This document shows positions 35,354 through 56,999 of a stretch of DNA of 64,000 bases, one piece after another. The translations under genes and the position numbers were made by a program. The first letter of the stretch is position 1; each line of letters opens with the position of its first letter. The stretch covers positions 1 to 64,000 of the forward strand of contig ONDR01000010.1 in assembly GCA_900316675.1 (NCBI GenBank), written 5' to 3'. The DNA comes from an uncultured Bacteroidales bacterium (lineage in GTDB: Bacteria > Bacteroidota > Bacteroidia > Bacteroidales > UBA932). The notes under the pieces are model-generated. The model was not told the DNA's origin. It was given only the letters and a program-made list of their open reading frames with translations, and did no database searches.

Positions 35354-36160
35354 ATGAAAAGGAAATGCAGCGTAGTGCTTCTTACCGGAGGCAGCAGCGG
35401 AATTGGAGCCGCAACGGCAGACTGGCTGGCAGACAAGGGAATAAAGGTTTATGCAACCTCCCGCAGCGGCAAGGCGCCGGATAACGACAACATCGTTCCC
35501 ATGATCATGGACGTCAACGACCAGGAGGCCGTCAACAAAGTTGTAGAAACCATCTACAAGGCGGAAGGCCATCTGGACGCAGTGATCTGCAACGCCGGCA
35601 ACGGAATAGCAGGAGCGGTTGAAGACACCTCAATCGAAGAGGCACGCTACCAGTTCGAAACCTGCTACTTTGGTGCAGTCCGCACCATCGACGCCTGCCT
35701 GCCCATTTTCAGGCAGCAAGGTTACGGCAAGATTATTACCGTCACCTCTGTAGCAGCTTTCATACCTATCCCCTTCCAGGCCTTCTATTCGTCCGTAAAA
35801 GCCGCCCTGCTTATGCTTACAAAGGCTCTTTCGCTGGAAGTCAAGCCCTTTGGAATACAATGCTGCAGCGTTCAGCCCGGTGACACAAAAACCGGCTTTA
35901 CATCTGCCCGTAAATACACGGCAAAAGCATATGACGGCGCTTACACAGAGACGATGAAGCGTTCCGTGGCCAAGATGGAAAAGGACGAGCAAAACGGCAT
36001 GCCCGCATCCAAGATAGCCAAGGCCATATACAAACAGTTGAAAGCCAGGAAGATGAGGCTGAATGTAACGCCCCGCTTCGACTACAGGGCCATCGAGATT
36101 CTGTCCAAACTTCTGCCCACAAGAGTTATAATGTGGCTTGTTGGTAAGTTGTATTGCTAG
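35354..36160 (+). CDS. SDR family oxidoreductase, possible ketosphinganine reductase
   Basis: The 268-residue short-chain dehydrogenase has the NAD(P) motif TGGSSGIG (11-18), NAG (80-82) and the catalytic Ser132, Tyr145 and Lys149 (YSSVK). The tail after about 230 is basic and hydrophobic (KLLPTRVIMWLVGKLY), which suggests membrane contact, as in 3-ketodihydrosphingosine reductase and retinol-dehydrogenase-like SDRs. Bacteroidetes make sphingolipids, so reduction of 3-ketosphinganine is a fair guess given the lipid genes around it, but many other substrates are possible. Confidence 0.8.
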   Translation: MKRKCSVVLLTGGSSGIGAATADWLADKGIKVYATSRSGKAPDNDNIVPMIMDVNDQEAVNKVVETIYKAEGHLDAVICNAGNGIAGAVEDTSIEEARYQFETCYFGAVRTIDACLPIFRQQGYGKIITVTSVAAFIPIPFQAFYSSVKAALLMLTKALSLEVKPFGIQCCSVQPGDTKTGFTSARKYTAKAYDGAYTETMKRSVAKMEKDEQNGMPASKIAKAIYKQLKARKMRLNVTPRFDYRAIEILSKLLPTRVIMWLVGKLYC

Positions 36161-36172
36161 AGCTTTTATGTA

Positions 36173-37123
36173 ATGAAATTACCGTTTCAAGATTACCTTT
36201 CAGAGCCTGTGACCGTAAAACGCGGACTTTTGCCAATTGAATGGCTTACAGTTGGTTATACGGCTTTTACGACTATTCTAATGCTTATCTTCGGAAGCAG
36301 GATGAGCGGCATTCCGGGTATGACAGCCCTGCGTGCGGCTGCCCTTGGAACCGTTGTCCTGGGCCTGCTTCTTTCACGCAGGTATGCAAACAGGTTTACA
36401 CAGATTCTGCGCATTGCCATGCAACTTGGCCTGCTAGCCTTCTGGTACCCGGACCTTTACGAGGTCAGCCGTATCTTCCCCAACGCAGATCACATATTTG
36501 CCTCCCTGGAGCAGCATTTCTTTGGCTGCCAACCGGCCATCACATTCTCTGAAAACTGCACATCCAAGTTCCTGAGCGAGTGCTTTTACATGGGCTATCT
36601 TTTCTACTTCCCGATGATAGCCACAGTACTTGTGTATTATGCTTTCATGCGTCCTGATGGTTTTGAAAAGGCCGCCACTATCATTCTTGGATCCTTTTTT
36701 ACCTACTACATAGTATTCCTGTTCCTGCCCGTTGCAGGCCCTCAGTACTACTTTAACGCCATCGGTCTGAATGCCGCAAGAAGCGAAGACTTCCAGAACG
36801 TCGGACATTGGTTCAACAGCAACATGGAAATGCTTGACCCTCCGGGCTGGAAGGACGGTCTGTTTTACAAACTGCTGGCCATGATCCGCGAGAGCGAGCG
36901 TCCTGTAGCATCCTTCCCCAGCAGCCATGTAGGCGTAAGCACCATTATGATGATTCTTGCCCTCAAGACAAAGAGCAAGGGCCTGATAACCATATTGATC
37001 CCCCTCTGGGTCTTCCTGGTTTGCGCAACCATATTCATCCGCGCGCACTATGTAGTCGATGTTATTGCCGGTTTCATTACCGCCCCCATCGTATATTATT
37101 TCCTTAACAAACTGTTTAAATGA
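36173..37123 (+). CDS. PAP2 superfamily membrane phosphatase/transferase
   Basis: The 316-residue protein has several membrane helices and PAP2 motifs: SFPSSHVGVST with the first His and RAHYVVDVIAGF with the second His and the Asp. It resembles the PAP2_3 group that includes the inositol-phosphoceramide synthase Aur1, rather than small undecaprenyl pyrophosphatases. It may remove a lipid phosphate or transfer a phosphate-bearing head group on the outer side of the inner membrane. The stop overlaps the M23 gene start by 4 bp. Confidence 0.78.
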   Translation: MKLPFQDYLSEPVTVKRGLLPIEWLTVGYTAFTTILMLIFGSRMSGIPGMTALRAAALGTVVLGLLLSRRYANRFTQILRIAMQLGLLAFWYPDLYEVSRIFPNADHIFASLEQHFFGCQPAITFSENCTSKFLSECFYMGYLFYFPMIATVLVYYAFMRPDGFEKAATIILGSFFTYYIVFLFLPVAGPQYYFNAIGLNAARSEDFQNVGHWFNSNMEMLDPPGWKDGLFYKLLAMIRESERPVASFPSSHVGVSTIMMILALKTKSKGLITILIPLWVFLVCATIFIRAHYVVDVIAGFITAPIVYYFLNKLFK

Positions 37124-38370
37124 GAAGGTCTCTTGTCATAGCCATACCGGTACTGATGATACTGGCAAGCCAGCTTTTACCCTCTTGCCGCTGCTGCGGA
37201 GGGAGCGAAGGTGAAACGGGTGCCGACACCATCGCCGTCAAGGATACAGTCTACCCTCTTGGCTTCTGTACAGATTCCTTCGACCTTGTTTCCGGAACAG
37301 TTAAGAACGGAGAAAACTTTACCGGACTGCTGCTTAGACTTGGCCTGTCGGCAAAAGAGGCCTACGACCTTGTACAGGCAACTGATTCCGTCTTTGACGT
37401 ACGTAAACTGCGTGCAGGCAACACCTGGAACGCATACTATAACACAGATACCACCAGCGAACGCCGGGCCCAATACCTTGTCTATAATCAGGATAAGGTG
37501 CATATGACCGTATTCTGCCTTGCAGACAGCCTTCATGCATATAAGGTCGAGCGCCCCGTAACGGTTGTCCGCAAAGCGGCTGACATCATTATCAACACCT
37601 CTTTGTGGAACGACATGATAGCCGCCGGCGTATCTGCCAACATGATATCAGAACTGTCGGAAATCTATGCCTGGACGGTAGATTTCTTTGGCCTGCATAA
37701 GGGCGACAGGTTCCGTGTGCTGTACGACCAAACCCTGTGTGAAGGTGCCGATATCGGCGTTGCAGGCATCCCCTATGCCGTTTTTGAAAGGGACGGCAAA
37801 GAGCTGCAGGCTGTGATGTTCGACCAGCAGGACGGCGGCAACAAGTATTGGAACGAAAAGGGCGAAAGCATGAGGAAGGCCTTCCTGAAGGCTCCGCTCA
37901 AGTTCACCCGCATCAGTTCCGGTTTCTCTTATCATCGCAAGCATCCGGTTCACGGTGACGTCCGTGCCCACACCGGCGTAGACTATGCTGCACCTACCGG
38001 CACTCCGGTCATGACAATTGGCGACGGAACCGTAATCAGCAAGGGCTGGGGCGGCGGAGGCGGCAATACCGTCAAGATCCGTCACAACTCCGTTTACACA
38101 ACCGCCTATCTGCACCTTTCAAAATATGCCAAGAACCTTAAAGTCGGAGACAGGGTGCATCAGGGCGATGTTATCGGATATGTGGGCATGACCGGCACGG
38201 CAACAGGGCCGCACCTTGACTTCCGTGTCTGGAAGAACGGCACGCCTATCAACCCGCTTACAATGGAATCGCCGTCGGCAGAGCCCATCAAACAGGAAAA
38301 CATGGCCGCACTGGACTCTGTCAGGGTAATGTACAAAACAGCGCTGGATTCGCTTACAAACCGAAAATAA
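37120..38370 (+). CDS. M23 family metallopeptidase lipoprotein
   Basis: The 416-residue protein has a lipoprotein signal (lipobox LPSC near residue 23), an OapA/LysM-like middle part and a C-terminal LytM domain. Zinc ligands His284 and Asp288 (HTGVD) are present. The usual HLH near the end is GPHLDF: His365 remains, but the third zinc ligand, normally His, is Asp367. I believe this HLD form recurs in Bacteroidetes; it may still bind zinc or be inactive. The family cuts peptidoglycan cross-links. It is coupled to the PAP2 gene (overlap of 4 bp). Confidence 0.85.
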   Translation: MRRSLVIAIPVLMILASQLLPSCRCCGGSEGETGADTIAVKDTVYPLGFCTDSFDLVSGTVKNGENFTGLLLRLGLSAKEAYDLVQATDSVFDVRKLRAGNTWNAYYNTDTTSERRAQYLVYNQDKVHMTVFCLADSLHAYKVERPVTVVRKAADIIINTSLWNDMIAAGVSANMISELSEIYAWTVDFFGLHKGDRFRVLYDQTLCEGADIGVAGIPYAVFERDGKELQAVMFDQQDGGNKYWNEKGESMRKAFLKAPLKFTRISSGFSYHRKHPVHGDVRAHTGVDYAAPTGTPVMTIGDGTVISKGWGGGGGNTVKIRHNSVYTTAYLHLSKYAKNLKVGDRVHQGDVIGYVGMTGTATGPHLDFRVWKNGTPINPLTMESPSAEPIKQENMAALDSVRVMYKTALDSLTNRK

Positions 38371-38391
38371 TCATATAGCCACATATAAGTT

Positions 38392-41100
38392 ATGAAAAAA
38401 ATTATTGCTCTGGTCCTTGTAGCAGCTGCCGTCTTCTTTTGCGTACGCAACTGTGGTAGCTCCACTGACATTAAACCCACAAAGAACCTTATTGTAATGA
38501 TTACTGACGGCACCTGTACAGGTCTGCTGTCACTTACCCGATGGTTCGAGCAGTACCAGGAACCGAAGGATGACCTTAGTTCCCTGGCTATCGACCCTTA
38601 TATCTGCGGTCTGGTTAGGACTTTCTGCAGCGACTCCCCTATTGCAGAGTCAGCTGGATCGATGTCGCAGTATATGACAGGCGTTCTGCAACAGGGACGC
38701 AATATTTCAGTTTATCCGCACGCCAATCCCCCGCAGGACCTGGTTCCCATCGATATGTCCAAGGAGTTCCAGCCCCAGTCTACCCTGCTTGAGGCGGCAA
38801 AGATCCAGAAGGGCAAGTCCGTGGGCGTGGTTGTAACCTGCTACCATCATCACGCTACTCCCGCCGCCACTTCTGCTCATTCGGTAGAAAGGGGCAACGA
38901 GTACGCAATTACCCGCCAGATGGCCTCCCAGGGCCTTGACGTATGTTTTGCCGGTGGTGCAAAATATATAAACGATACCGTCCGTCAGATCTTCGACGAG
39001 CAGGGAATCACCTACTATGAAAAGGATATCGAAGGCTGGCGTAACCACAAGGAAGGCAAGGTATGGGCCCTGTTCAGCGACAAGCACATGGCCTATGAAC
39101 TTGACCGCAAGGACAACGAGCCCTCGCTCACAGAAATGACGCTTAAGGCCATCGACCTTCTGTCAAAGAACAAGAAAGGCTTCTTCCTAATGGTAGAAGG
39201 CAGCAAGGTTGACTTCGGCGCGCATGCAAACGACCCCATCGGCACCGTTACCGAATTCATAGAATTCAACAATGCCGTTCAGGCCGTAATGGATTTTGCC
39301 AAAAAGGACGGAAACACAACCGTTGTGATTATGCCCGACCATGGAACAGGCGGCGTTCAGATGGGTGAACGCAATTACCGCGACTACCTGAAGAAGGGTC
39401 TGGACTCCATGTATATCAATATGAAGAACTACAAGGCTTCCGGCCCCGGCCTGGAAGAGCTTGTACGCGGATGCAAGAGCGTTGATGAGATTACCGCCAT
39501 CTTCAAGGAGTACACCGGCCTTGACCTGACCGAAGGCGAGCTGAACGCCCTGCTTGCAAACCGTGACAAAAAGGCTGCAGACCACATGAGCGTGGACCTT
39601 GCCCCCAACCTTGGAGCAGAAATCAATAAGATTCTTACAAAGCATACCCACGTTGGCTGGGTTACCGGCGGCCACACAGGAGAGGACGTATTCCTGGCTG
39701 TCTATAACCCCAACGACCAGCGTCCTATGGGTCTGATCAAGAACATCGACCTTAACCGCTATATGCGTAAGATCCTTGGTTTGAAAGAGGACCTGGAGGA
39801 TATGACCGACCGTATTTTTGTGCCTCATTATCAAGTATTTAAGGGCTATGATTATTCTATCGTAGCCACAGATAAGGGCCCTTGCCTGAAGGTTGTAAGC
39901 GGCGACGTTACCGTAGAGGTCCCGTCCAACCGTTCATACGTTCTGGTTAACGGAGAGCGCAAGGATCTTGGTTCCGTCGTACCTTATATCAAAGAGAACA
40001 AGACCTTCTACCTGCCCGCCGTCGTAAGGGATTATCTTCCCAAACTTGCGCCAGTGGCACATACCGACGTACCCGTTTATGCATGGTGCAGCATCAAGGC
40101 CGACGACACTCCCGAAACCTTCAAGACCTACCTTCAGGGCCTTAAGGACAAGGGTGTTACAGGCGTATGCGTAAATTCTTCTCTCAGGGACAGGGACCGC
40201 ATCGCCATGGCAGCAAAAGCCGCCCACGAGGTTGGCCTGGTTTACCACGCATGGCTGCCCTGCATGCTCCAGGGAGGCATGCCTCATTCATGGTATGCCG
40301 TTAACGCAGAGGGCAAGAGTGCAGACACCGATCCCGTTTATGTAGATTATTACAAGGCACTTGACCCCCACAATCCTGAGGTCATCGACTGGCTGGTTAA
40401 GCAATATACAGAAATTGCCCAGATCCCCGATGTCGACTATGTTCAGCTGGACTACATCCGTTACCCGGATGCAGTGCTGAGCCGCGGTCTGTGGGCTAAA
40501 TACAATCTGGACATGTCCTACTACTATGCCCCCGCGGACTATTGCTACTGCAAGGACTGCCAGGACGACTTCAAAGCTAAATACGGCCGCGGAGTCAAGA
40601 GCAATCATGCCGCAGACAAAGAGTGGGCACAGTTCCGCCAGGACGTAGTAACCAGCCTTGTAAACAAGATTGTCGCTTCTGTTCATGCCGTAGGTAAAAA
40701 AGTGAGCGCCGACGTATTCCCGGGCCCGGATTCCTACGCCAAATGGATGGTTCGTCAGGAATGGGACAAGTGGGACGTAGACGAATACTTCCCCATGAAC
40801 TACAACGACTTCTACCTGACTGACACCAAGTGGGTTGCCCGCATCACCGGAGAAGAAGTCCGCGCAGCCGGCAAGAAGCCCGTTTACAGCGGCCTGTTCA
40901 TATGCCACGACTGGCAGAATAAGGCCAGCCTGGTAGATCCGGAGAATTCCGGTCTTGTTCCCTCAGAGGTTGAGCCCGCCGTATTGGGCTCCATGGATAA
41001 CGGAGCCGCCGGCATCTGCCTCTTTACTCCCGATTCAATGACAGAGGACCATTGGGCAGCCCTTGACTCTGCACGCAAGGCCTGGCTGAATTCGAAATAA
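38392..41100 (+). CDS. Alkaline phosphatase fused to a glycoside-hydrolase-like domain
   Basis: This 902-residue exported protein (N-terminal signal or anchor, with Cys near residue 21) has three modules. Residues 30-460 are an alkaline phosphatase: nucleophile Ser87 (AESAG), metal ligands Asp39, Glu269, Asp274, His278, Asp316, His317 and His428, all present. Residues about 508-550 (VPSNRSYVLVNGERKDL, then PYIKENKTFYLPAVV) look like a copper-amine-oxidase N-terminal-like domain. Residues about 560-902 resemble the GHL10/DUF4015-type TIM barrel (VYAWCSIKADD, VQLDYIRYPD, VSADVFPGPD). The phosphatase should be active; the barrel's substrate is unknown. It is followed after 4 bp by a GH78 gene. 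Confidence 0.82.
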   Translation: MKKIIALVLVAAAVFFCVRNCGSSTDIKPTKNLIVMITDGTCTGLLSLTRWFEQYQEPKDDLSSLAIDPYICGLVRTFCSDSPIAESAGSMSQYMTGVLQQGRNISVYPHANPPQDLVPIDMSKEFQPQSTLLEAAKIQKGKSVGVVVTCYHHHATPAATSAHSVERGNEYAITRQMASQGLDVCFAGGAKYINDTVRQIFDEQGITYYEKDIEGWRNHKEGKVWALFSDKHMAYELDRKDNEPSLTEMTLKAIDLLSKNKKGFFLMVEGSKVDFGAHANDPIGTVTEFIEFNNAVQAVMDFAKKDGNTTVVIMPDHGTGGVQMGERNYRDYLKKGLDSMYINMKNYKASGPGLEELVRGCKSVDEITAIFKEYTGLDLTEGELNALLANRDKKAADHMSVDLAPNLGAEINKILTKHTHVGWVTGGHTGEDVFLAVYNPNDQRPMGLIKNIDLNRYMRKILGLKEDLEDMTDRIFVPHYQVFKGYDYSIVATDKGPCLKVVSGDVTVEVPSNRSYVLVNGERKDLGSVVPYIKENKTFYLPAVVRDYLPKLAPVAHTDVPVYAWCSIKADDTPETFKTYLQGLKDKGVTGVCVNSSLRDRDRIAMAAKAAHEVGLVYHAWLPCMLQGGMPHSWYAVNAEGKSADTDPVYVDYYKALDPHNPEVIDWLVKQYTEIAQIPDVDYVQLDYIRYPDAVLSRGLWAKYNLDMSYYYAPADYCYCKDCQDDFKAKYGRGVKSNHAADKEWAQFRQDVVTSLVNKIVASVHAVGKKVSADVFPGPDSYAKWMVRQEWDKWDVDEYFPMNYNDFYLTDTKWVARITGEEVRAAGKKPVYSGLFICHDWQNKASLVDPENSGLVPSEVEPAVLGSMDNGAAGICLFTPDSMTEDHWAALDSARKAWLNSK

Positions 41101-41104
41101 AGCC

Positions 41105-43516
41105 ATGAAGCGTTTGCTTCTTCCACTTTTACTGACTGCCGTCATATCCTGCCGGCAGTCTTTTGAAGTTTATGACCTTACCTGCGAATACCTTACCGAG
41201 CCCCTCGCAATAGACAATACCCAGCCGCACTTCAGCTGGAAGATAAGGTCCGATGTACCTATGGAACAGGCCGCCTACGAGATTGAGGTCGGTCCCGACA
41301 GTCTTTGGTACTCCGGCAAAGTCGAATCCATTGAACAGATTATGATACCCTACCAAGGCCGGGAACTGGCACCCGGGCAACAGGCCTGGTGGCGTGTAAG
41401 AATCTGGCGTAAAGGTAAAAATAGAGGCGAATTGGAAGCATCCGCATGGAGCAAGCCCCAACGCTTTGGAATAGGCCTTCTGGACGGAATGAAGGGAGAG
41501 TATATCGGATGCTGCCCCGGGGAAGGCCGGGCTCCTGTATTCCGCAAGCGTTTTAACGCTCCCCAAACCGGCACTCAGGCCATTCTGCACGTTAATTCCC
41601 TTGGCTACCACGAGGCCTTTGTAAATGGCATCAAGGTAACTGACGCCGTGCTTTGCCCGGCTGTCTCCCAGCTTGATAGCAGGTCAATTATAGTTACTTA
41701 CGACGTCTCTTCCCTGCTTAAGGAAGGAGAAAACGAAATAACTATCTACGCCGGATCCGGATGGTATAAAAAGACCACCTTCGAGGCTGTTTACGACGGC
41801 CCTCTGGTGAAGGCGGAACTGGATATTGACGGCAAGCCCTTCCTATGGACCGATGCCTCCTGGGAGGGGGCCTGGTGCGGCTACAGCGACCTGGGCACGT
41901 GGCAGCCTCACAAGTTTGGAGGCGAACTGATCGATGCCCGCATAAAGCCCGAATGGGCGCCTGTCGATATAGTATCCGTTACCGGAATCAAGGCTACGCC
42001 GCAGATGTGCGGTCCTGTTAAAGTTCAGGAAGAACTGCTTCCCGCCAGCATCACCGCACTCGAGGACGGAAAATTCCTTCTGGACTATGGCTGCATAGTT
42101 AACGCCATGATGGATGTTGCCCTTCCTCCCCTTCCAGCCGGCACGACTGTCACCGCCACCTTCAGCGACTTCATGCACCCGGACGGAAGCCTTGAACAGG
42201 CCACCATCGGACAGGATATTTACATAGCCTCAGGGGCGCCGGAAGGCGACAGGTTCCGCAACAGGTTCAACCACCATCTGTTTCAGTACATATTGGTTGA
42301 AGGCCTGCCGCAAGAGCCTGGAAAAGAGGCCTTCAAGGCCCTCAGGATTGGGGATGACCTTGTCTGGGGCGGCTCCTTCAAATGCTCTGACCCGGACCTT
42401 AACGCCATATATAATTTAGTAGAGCGTTCGGTTCAGAACCTTACCTTTGGCGGCTACATGGTAGACTGCGCCAGCATCGAACGTCTTGGCTACGGCGGCG
42501 ACGGAAATGCATCAACCCCCACCCTTCAGGCCATGGCGGATGCTGCGCCGCTATACCTTAACTGGCTGCAGGCCTGGGCGGACTCGCAGCGTCCTGACGG
42601 AGGCCTTCCGCACACAGCACCCAACCCCTACACTGCCGGAGGCGGCCCTTATTGGTGCAGTTTCCTTATCCAGGCAGCATACAACACCTATTTGAATTAC
42701 GCCGATCCAAGGCCAATGGAACGCTACTACCCTGCCATGAAAAGGTGGCTGGAATATGTGGACAAGTACAGCGCCGACGGTCTTCTGAGACGCTGGCCTG
42801 ACACCGACTACCGCGACTGGTATCTTGGCGACTGGGCCGCTCCCAAGGGCATCGACGTCAGCGACCAGCGGTCCATCGACCTTATCAGCAACTGCACCAT
42901 AGCAAAAGCATATCTGCAAATGTTCCGCATCGCCTCATATCTTGGCAAGAAAGAAGATGCTTCCGAATTCTCTGACAAGTTTATGAAGCTTTCCCAGCTG
43001 ATTGAAAAAGAGTTCCGGAATCCGGACGGGACCTTTGCCTCCGGCAGCCAGTTAGACAATATCTTTCCTATGATTCTTGGCATCAGCCCGGATTATCCCA
43101 ATGCAGACAGTACCCATATAGCGACGGGTCTGGTTGGCATTCCCGTTATTACTGAATGGGCGATTATTGACTGCCTGCTGACAAATTGGATGTACAAAAC
43201 GCTCAAGAACAGAGATTATCCCGGATATCTGTACATGATAGATAATGGGGCAACCGGCACATGGGAAGAGTGGGATGGCGGACGCAGCCACCTTCACAAC
43301 TGCTATAACGGCATAGGTCGATGGTTCTTCGAAGGGCTGGGCGGCATAAGTCCCGTTGAGCCCGGATATCGCAAATGCATGATTAATCCTACTCTTCCGG
43401 ACGGTGTAGATTGGGTAGAAATCACTCAGAATACTCCATATGGACAAATACATGTTTTCAAATCAAAAACAGAATTCAAGGTAGATGTTCCGGTAGGTAT
43501 TACGTTTGTAGATTAA
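41105..43516 (+). CDS. GH78 family alpha-L-rhamnosidase-like lipoprotein
   Basis: The 803-residue protein has a lipobox (AVISC, Cys16) and the usual GH78 order: an N-terminal Ig-like domain (PHFSWKI), a carbohydrate-binding beta-sandwich (VNGIKVTDAVLCPAVSQLD), and an alpha/alpha-barrel from about residue 430. The barrel motif DCASIERLGYGGDG holds the likely catalytic acid region, and GATGTWEEWDGG is also family-typical. It would remove terminal rhamnose from plant or microbial glycans. There is no SusC/SusD pair or regulator beside it. It is last in the nine-gene run. Confidence 0.87.
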   Translation: MKRLLLPLLLTAVISCRQSFEVYDLTCEYLTEPLAIDNTQPHFSWKIRSDVPMEQAAYEIEVGPDSLWYSGKVESIEQIMIPYQGRELAPGQQAWWRVRIWRKGKNRGELEASAWSKPQRFGIGLLDGMKGEYIGCCPGEGRAPVFRKRFNAPQTGTQAILHVNSLGYHEAFVNGIKVTDAVLCPAVSQLDSRSIIVTYDVSSLLKEGENEITIYAGSGWYKKTTFEAVYDGPLVKAELDIDGKPFLWTDASWEGAWCGYSDLGTWQPHKFGGELIDARIKPEWAPVDIVSVTGIKATPQMCGPVKVQEELLPASITALEDGKFLLDYGCIVNAMMDVALPPLPAGTTVTATFSDFMHPDGSLEQATIGQDIYIASGAPEGDRFRNRFNHHLFQYILVEGLPQEPGKEAFKALRIGDDLVWGGSFKCSDPDLNAIYNLVERSVQNLTFGGYMVDCASIERLGYGGDGNASTPTLQAMADAAPLYLNWLQAWADSQRPDGGLPHTAPNPYTAGGGPYWCSFLIQAAYNTYLNYADPRPMERYYPAMKRWLEYVDKYSADGLLRRWPDTDYRDWYLGDWAAPKGIDVSDQRSIDLISNCTIAKAYLQMFRIASYLGKKEDASEFSDKFMKLSQLIEKEFRNPDGTFASGSQLDNIFPMILGISPDYPNADSTHIATGLVGIPVITEWAIIDCLLTNWMYKTLKNRDYPGYLYMIDNGATGTWEEWDGGRSHLHNCYNGIGRWFFEGLGGISPVEPGYRKCMINPTLPDGVDWVEITQNTPYGQIHVFKSKTEFKVDVPVGITFVD

Positions 43517-55311: not shown

Positions 55312-56999
55312 TATGCCTGTATCTCGTGAAGTTTACTGCCAACCCTAGCCTCAACAACATTGACGATATAGTCACCGGTCTGCTCGCATTCCTCAATAAG
55401 GTCGTTCAGAACCGTACCAAGTTCGTAACTGTATGTCTGATTGTCCAGATTGGCGATATTCTGCTTTTTAAGGGAATTTCTAAGGTCGTTAATCCGCTGC
55501 TCTATGCCGGCAGTCGCATTGATGTTGATTTCTTCAAGGCGGCCGCTAAGGACGATATTCATCTGGGTCAGGGCCTCATCGATAAGCTCGTACATCTGAA
55601 GTATACCGTGGTTAATCTCGTCATTGAACCAAAGCTTATGGTCGCGTTTGCGGCGCATGATACGGGCCAGGCTGAAGCAGCTGTCGCCAACGGACTCCAG
55701 CTCCCCTATCTCACGCATCATTGAACGGATCTTAAGTTTGGTTTCATCAGACAAGTGGGCGGAACCGACGTCTCCAAGGTACTTGCCAATCTCGTTCTCC
55801 ATCTTGTCGCTGACATCCTCACCCTTCTTGATACGCTCGAAGAGCTTCTCAAAGGGCTGGTCTTCCTGAGTAGCATAAAGATCACGCACCAGGCTGAAGA
55901 GACGCTGGGTCTGTTCTCCGAAGGAAACAATCTCTTTCTGTGCCTGAAGTACGGAAATTTCCGGGGTCTTCATGATACCGCCGCGAATAAACTGCAGGCG
56001 GAATTCATCCTCTTCTTCTGACTGCTTCTTCTTGATGAACTTGCAAACCAGCTTTTCTATCTGCGGAATGAACCAGATAAGGATGGATGTATTAATAAGG
56101 TTGAAGCAGGTATGGAAGGCTGCCAGTGCGAATGAAAGCTTGGTAGGATCCTGCTCCGATGCAGTAGGATCCAGGTCAACCAGACCGCAAACCATCCTTA
56201 CAAAGGGGAAGAAGAAAATAAGCACCCAAATAACGCCGAAGACGTTGAACAGAAGGTGCGCCATAGCCGTACGGCGGGCCTGGGTATTGGCATTCAGGGC
56301 GGCCAGATTGGCTGTTACGGTAGTACCGATGTTTTCACCCATTACCAAAGCAATGCCCTGATAGATGGTAATCGCACCCGTAGCACAAAGAACCATCGTT
56401 ATAGCCATAAGGGCTGCGGAACTCTGCACCAGCGCCGTCAGGACGGTACCTATAAGCAGGAATAGCAATATGGTAACGTAATTTGTCTTGAAACTTGCAA
56501 AGAAGTCCACAACGGCCGGATTGCTGGCCAGGTCCATCTCTACGCCCGTGGTCTTAAGCATGCCCAGGGCAAAGAGCAGGAAACTGAGTCCGAAGAGGAA
56601 GTCTCCTATGTAGCGATGCTTGCCCAGTTGGATAAGGATGATACCTATAAGGAAGGCTGGCCAGACCAGATTTGCGATGTTGAAGGAGAAGCCGGCAGAC
56701 ATGATCCAGGCGCTCATTGTGGTACCGATGTTGGCACCCATAATGATCGATATGGCCTGAGTCAGCGTCAGCAGGGCCGCATTCACGAACGACACCGTCA
56801 TTACGGTTGTCGCAGCGGATGATTGCACGGCCACGGTAACCAGAGCACCTGTTGCTACGCCAGAGAATCGGTTGGATGTCATTGCACCCAACAAATGTCG
56901 AAGCTGAGGGCCGGCCATCTTCTGCAAAGCCTCGCTCATCACCTTCATTCCGTAAATAAGAAGGGCGATGGAGCCCAGAAGTTTCAAAACAATTAGCAT
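55311..56999 (-). CDS. Na/Pi cotransporter family protein with PhoU-like tail
   Basis: The 562-residue protein has an inverted-repeat transporter part (about 1-320) with the two QSS motifs of type II Na/Pi symporters: VQSSAATTVMTV (about residue 60) and VQSSAALMAITM (about 190). The cytoplasmic tail (about 350-540) is a PhoU-like helical domain with GDSCFSLARIMRR. It may import phosphate with Na+, or export it; the direction is debated in bacteria. Together with the phosphatases and the likely Na+ V/A-ATPase it suggests a linked phosphate supply. Confidence 0.9.
   Translation of the reverse strand: MLIVLKLLGSIALLIYGMKVMSEALQKMAGPQLRHLLGAMTSNRFSGVATGALVTVAVQSSAATTVMTVSFVNAALLTLTQAISIIMGANIGTTMSAWIMSAGFSFNIANLVWPAFLIGIILIQLGKHRYIGDFLFGLSFLLFALGMLKTTGVEMDLASNPAVVDFFASFKTNYVTILLFLLIGTVLTALVQSSAALMAITMVLCATGAITIYQGIALVMGENIGTTVTANLAALNANTQARRTAMAHLLFNVFGVIWVLIFFFPFVRMVCGLVDLDPTASEQDPTKLSFALAAFHTCFNLINTSILIWFIPQIEKLVCKFIKKKQSEEEDEFRLQFIRGGIMKTPEISVLQAQKEIVSFGEQTQRLFSLVRDLYATQEDQPFEKLFERIKKGEDVSDKMENEIGKYLGDVGSAHLSDETKLKIRSMMREIGELESVGDSCFSLARIMRRKRDHKLWFNDEINHGILQMYELIDEALTQMNIVLSGRLEEININATAGIEQRINDLRNSLKKQNIANLDNQTYSYELGTVLNDLIEECEQTGDYIVNVVEARVGSKLHEIQA

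Follow-up and report, generated by a model that had tools for sequence, protein, structure and literature searches.

Does a single bacterial protein couple the removal of phosphate to the opening of a glycan, or do two envelope enzymes with separate substrates share one chain? The question is raised by an open reading frame in the stretch of DNA analysed here (64,000 nucleotides from an uncultured Bacteroidales bacterium, contig ONDR01000010.1; hereafter the window), in which an alkaline phosphatase (AP) is followed by a glycosidase-like barrel. The initial annotation had read it as one secreted protein directed against phosphorylated polysaccharide or teichoic-type polymers. The features of the chain and its immediate neighbours are collected in Table 1.

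Table 1. Features of the AP-barrel fusion and its adjoining genes, in positions of the window
Feature	Position	Strand	Basis
Fusion ORF	38392-41100	+	Single open frame, 902 aa
N-terminal hydrophobic export segment, residues 1-22	38392..38457	+	Alignment of fusions
AP domain, residues 28-470	38473..39801	+	PF00245; aligned to 3a52, 3bdg; common to all fusions
AP nucleophile Ser87	38650-38652	+	
C-terminal AP extension, residues 471-548, weakly Cu_amine_oxidN1-like	39802..40035	+	PF07833 E 0.011, below cut-off
Fusion linker, residues 549-560, fast evolving	40036..40071	+	12 codons, pN 0.18-0.35
GHL10-like (beta/alpha)8 barrel, residues 561-902	40072..41097	+	PF02638; AlphaFold2; Cwp19 match
Asp687, end residue of strand beta-4, invariant	40450..40452	+	78 sequences; HMMER alignments
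CxCxxC motif, residues 718-723, possible structural Zn site	40543..40560	+	Invariant in 78 sequences
Asp806, right behind strand beta-6, invariant, candidate second acid	40807..40809	+	78 sequences; strand ends from model
M23 peptidase gene, 21 bp upstream of fusion	37120..38370	+	PF01551 E 2.2e-32
GH78 alpha-L-rhamnosidase gene, 4 bp downstream	41105..43516	+	PF17389 E 3.5e-80

The single chain is real, and is conserved in at least eight related genomes. Among 250 genomes of the genus, it was found in four further ones, at identities of 81% (G188), 79% (G097), 63% (G091) and 62% (G025); the last is cut off by a contig end, and the other three are whole and stop-free. A separate scan of named genome contigs yielded three more, in RUG11933 (L130), RGIG4399 (L132) and Reindeer_1_mag_63 (L135, detected by tblastn). 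Besides the window, seven ruminant Bacteroidales MAGs therefore carry whole or contig-truncated fusions, at 62–81% identity. Roe deer and reindeer appear in the titles of several records, and the RUG sets comprise rumen genomes. Both domains are under purifying selection, with dN/dS between fusions of 0.04–0.10 for the AP and 0.04–0.11 for the barrel, and ∼0.14–0.38 for the 12 codons of the linker where computable, all of these values being rough because synonymous sites are near saturation. The recurrence of stop-free chains, with both domains constrained, rules out a frame error or an assembly fusion of two genes, and the single chain that had been read from one sequence is thereby upheld. 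Beyond the genus, 393 genomes of the order and 395 of the phylum showed no joined chain; AP and barrel are common there but occur as separate genes, and one scan of viral contigs returned no relative that would indicate a viral or mobile origin. A search of the open-licence literature found no published description of an AP-glycosidase fusion, in agreement with the earlier statement that no example was known, and the architecture is new as far as that literature shows.

The N-terminal segment may be either a lipoprotein signal or an uncleaved membrane anchor. All seven fusions whose N-terminus is present keep a cysteine near position 21, and the lipobox of the window fusion is atypical (V-R-N-C). 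The chain would be exported by this segment, and probably anchored there.

The AP half matches the Pfam family Alk_phosphatase over residues 31–463 (E 5.6e-65, 220.4 bits against a cut-off of 24.4), and shares with PhoA-type APs (3a52, Escherichia coli PhoA) the whole catalytic domain. Alignments to solved APs show that the nucleophile serine, the Arg166 equivalent and all the Zn ligands are kept; in PhoA numbering, D39, S87, T156, R167 and E269 correspond to D51, S102, T155, R166 and E322, and D274, H278, D316, H317 and H428 to D327, H331, D369, H370 and H412. The claim that catalytic and metal residues are retained thus holds for the nucleophile, the arginine and the metal ligands, but three second-shell or Mg-site positions differ from PhoA, namely E86 for D101, H154 for D153 and F275 for K328. 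A histidine and an aromatic residue likewise occupy the 153 and 328 equivalents in 3a52, a solved AP of the cold-active kind. The AP half is probably a phosphomonoesterase that works through the usual Ser/Zn mechanism.

Unlike PhoA, the fusion has an extra C-terminal domain and the barrel. The segment originally labelled an amine-oxidase-like linker (Cu_amine_oxidN1, residues 473–539) reaches 16.1 bits against a cut-off of 24.2, and the same extension is found in free-standing ∼550-aa APs of the order, which share the first 550 residues at 36–50% identity and lack the barrel. It is therefore a C-terminal extension of the AP rather than a fusion-specific element, and the true linker is confined to residues ∼549–560.

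The barrel half is complete, with eight strands and a mean pLDDT of 92.4 (AlphaFold2, 78 sequences). The full-length model has a mean pLDDT of 65.9 overall, with a poor AP half, and its interdomain geometry was left unused. The match to the Pfam family GHL10 (residues 601–816, E 1.2e-6) is marginal, at 28.3 bits against a cut-off of 27.9, and relatives in L169, L174 and L031 score just under this cut-off. Fold comparison was done with Foldseek and VIA, without residue alignment, and active-site residues were read from sequence alignments. Among PDB entries Cwp19 ranks first (Z 25.7; 282 residues at an rmsd of 2.8), ahead of PgaB (Z 24.7) and the GH42 beta-galactosidase 1kwg (Z 23.9).

With the GHL10 domain of Clostridioides difficile Cwp19 (5OQ2, 5OQ3) and with E. 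coli DigH, the barrel shares its fold at 18% identity, and equivalents of Cwp19 Trp127, Tyr297, Gly328 and Phe367 are retained. In Cwp19, a GHL10 protein, the pocket acid is Asp196 and the second canonical position is occupied by Gly328 (PMC5765458). The barrel carries the motif LDYIRYP where the Cwp19/DigH type has DDY, which places Tyr688 at the Asp196 position, although this match comes from an ungapped sequence alignment and a one-residue structural shift is possible; Gly834 corresponds to Gly328, and Cwp19 Arg132 and Gln295 are lost. The fold is also shared with GH42 (1kwg, ∼14% identity) and the C-terminal domain of PgaB, but the catalytic Glu pair of GH42 is apparently absent, as the sites that the GHL10 alignment assigns to beta-4 and beta-7 (NEY and ME motifs in GH42) hold no Glu. 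Since both canonical GHL10/GH42 acid positions are without an acid, catalysis by the barrel is only putative.

The barrel does have invariant residues of its own. D687, R690, N803, Tyr804, D806 and the CxCxxC motif are invariant in the 78 barrel sequences, with many of the invariant polar residues at or near strand C-termini. Asp687 aligns with Cwp19 Asp195, and also, in a match that spans one third of the barrel (E 0.0016), with the Asp in the WDMNRY motif of the GH36 alpha-galactosidase family (3mi6), where the beta-4 Asp is the nucleophile. From the sequence alignments I infer that Asp687 and Asp806 are the likely catalytic pair; a conserved pair of acids, the absence of which would have spoken against the initial annotation, is in any case present. 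CxCxxC follows beta-4 as in GH42, and has no counterpart in clearly canonical GHL10 rows of the alignment. Some GH42 enzymes hold Zn with such a group of cysteines (PMC8573354), and by analogy the motif is a possible structural Zn site. The marginal score, the lost canonical acids and the invariant residues of its own together define a divergent GHL10-like family. Domain and residue evidence thus bears out the initial annotation as regards a single chain, directed to the envelope, in which an AP precedes a whole glycosidase-type barrel of ∼340 C-terminal residues, but a GHL10 type in the functional sense is not upheld, because Asp196 aligns with Tyr and neither canonical acid position is kept. 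A canonical GHL10 protein is encoded elsewhere in the same genome (L210/L235, G000:C15:28978-29883), in a 384-aa frame with the DDY motif (E 4e-58).

Members of the barrel family also occur as free-standing proteins of ∼365 aa, often with a lipoprotein-like signal, and the barrel of the fusion begins where the mature free-standing lipoprotein does. The AP halves of the fusions form one clade (support 100/99). In the barrel tree, the free-standing barrel of RGIG3349 (L131) groups beside one set of fusions; a clade of fusions only is rejected (p 0.033), but one that also takes in L131 is acceptable (p 0.21). A single fusion, with L131 having lost its AP afterwards, is preferred though not proven, because the clade with L131 stands, the AP halves are one clade and the junction matches. 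Two independent AP-barrel fusion events, to which the rejection of the fusions-only clade in the barrel tree would point, are less favoured. A barrel stripped of its own lipoprotein signal would, in a single event, have been joined to the end of an AP.

The surroundings of the free-standing barrels give an indication of their substrate. The family is widespread in gut Bacteroidota, and is operon-linked to GH29 and CBM9. Within ∼4 kb of 72 named free-standing loci, a GH29 homologue was found in 15–18, a SusC-like protein in 16, a transglutaminase-like protein in 11 and CBM9 in 10, these being raw counts with no background rate. The transglutaminase-like protein is ∼880–1000 aa long and adjoins barrels in L026, L149, L173, L183, L187, L192 and L199. 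Pfam assignments on 95 sampled neighbour proteins comprised nine alpha-L-fucosidases, six CBM9, two PNGase F and two GH92. Four loci of Bacteroidaceae and Prevotellaceae (L159, L169, L187, L206) hold a same-strand run of GH29, CBM9 and barrel, and the barrel is itself fused to GH3 in L169 and to CBM9 in L174 and L031. Plant N-glycan degradation by Bacteroides also partners GH29, GH3, GH92 and PNGase (PMC9522356). GH29, CBM9, SusC and the occasional PNGase F or GH92 suggest glycoprotein-type glycans rather than teichoic acid, and the free-standing loci look suited to fucosylated glycans of this type. For a teichoic-type polymer, as had been proposed, the search of the genomic context found nothing in support. 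No characterised member of the barrel family was found. No AP gene was found beside the 70-odd free-standing barrels either; among the loci examined the fusion alone brings AP and barrel together, and gene neighbourhood does not show coupling on one substrate.

A second fusion in the same genus bears more directly on coupling. The genome of the window has the unfused arrangement, a 388-aa AP flanked by GH2 and GH18, with GH20, a ROK kinase, SusC and SusD in the same locus (L037, G000:C7:15000-27000). In ∼12 of the 250 genomes of the genus, that AP falls within an open frame of ∼1130–1280 aa, which proved to be a GH2-AP fusion in all five loci read (L231, L232, L239, L240, L241) and lies in the conserved ROK/GH20/GH18/SusCD locus. 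Like the AP-barrel chain, it places an AP and a glycosidase in one exported protein; it differs in the AP subfamily (∼31% identity), in the C-terminal position of the AP, in its GH2 partner and in its GH20/GH18/SusCD surroundings, the window fusion sitting outside any SusCD locus. As the subfamily differs and the order is reversed, the genus must have joined an AP to a glycosidase on two or more occasions. The PUS loci of Flavobacterium also tie phosphatases to SusCD-like transporters, but there phosphatases and phosphodiesterases are described rather than CAZymes, and without a fusion (PMC8115612).

Taken together, I tentatively favour a two-enzyme envelope protein that couples dephosphorylation to the cleavage of a single glycan or glycopeptide that bears phosphate. 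Cleavage or reshaping of a glycan is the most likely task of the barrel half, and Asp687 and Asp806 are its candidate pair; the benefit would be that both activities are held on the same molecule, so that phosphate is removed where the chain is opened. The recurrence of AP-glycosidase fusions in the genus supports such coupling, which the initial annotation had also suggested; the second fusion speaks for this part of its reading, and the free-standing barrels, with no AP beside them, against it. The latter also favour a close rival, which I regard as possible, that two envelope enzymes with separate substrates were joined by chance, the AP scavenging phosphate and the barrel trimming glycan, and that the fusion has been retained since exporting both together does no harm or adds stability. 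That order and phylum commonly carry AP and barrel as separate genes, and that the linker evolves fast, fits this explanation. Chance joining accounts less readily for a fusion that has outlasted divergence down to 62% identity while constraint was kept on either domain, or for a second, independent AP-glycosidase fusion lying in an operon with GH partners.

The genes next to the window fusion suggest another alternative. The M23-fusion pair is kept in five genomes (the window, L128, L129, L130 and L132), which is five out of five in one clade, and its orientation relative to the flanks varies among carriers. In the window (35354-43516) the pair is inverted relative to the nearest relatives, L080/L081, with syntenic flanking genes. 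The GH78 gene behind the fusion is missing from the corresponding place in these relatives, and would represent a recent insertion or rearrangement. A Na+/Pi cotransporter gene (PF02690) lies elsewhere in the window, at 55314-56999 on the minus strand. In L131 (G175) M23 is followed by a barrel without AP, so that the AP is either dispensable there or was joined later, and in G220 M23 is followed by an AP.

A constant M23 partner in one clade points to the cell wall, and against a role on glycoprotein glycans. The barrel would then, in the manner of Cwp19 or DigH, be a GHL10-type glycosidase or lytic transglycosylase that remodels peptidoglycan with the upstream M23, and the AP would recover phosphate freed from envelope polymers. 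The M23-barrel and M23-AP pairs of L131 and G220 are consistent with this, as is the nearest fold, Cwp19 being a proven lytic transglycosylase (PMC6016235). Peptidoglycan remodelling is nevertheless improbable: Asp196, Arg132 and Gln295 of Cwp19 are not retained, and the same genome has the separate canonical GHL10 of L210. The M23 association is also loose outside that clade, as homologues are present in 190 of the 250 genomes of the genus, most of the others checked having no barrel or AP alongside, none was found beside the L135 fusion, and that of G091 is on another contig than its fusion. Slightly less probable still is a non-enzymatic, sugar-binding barrel by which the AP would dock to phosphorylated glycans, for although both canonical acid positions are lost (Tyr688, Gly834), D687, R690, N803 and D806 are among the polar residues invariant over 78 sequences, free-standing barrels lie in degradative operons, and the barrel is also fused to CBM9, which would already supply binding.

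The coupled two-enzyme protein thus remains the preferred reading. A more specific version, in which the barrel represents an undescribed glycosidase family that lacks the canonical GHL10/GH42 acids and the two single-chain phosphatase-glycosidases evolved in the genus against phosphorylated rumen glycoprotein glycans, is unlikely as a whole. If the two halves do cooperate, gut Bacteroidales would use tethered phosphatase-glycosidases on phosphorylated glycans much as they use sulfatases on sulfated ones, and an under-explored part of glycan degradation would become directly testable.
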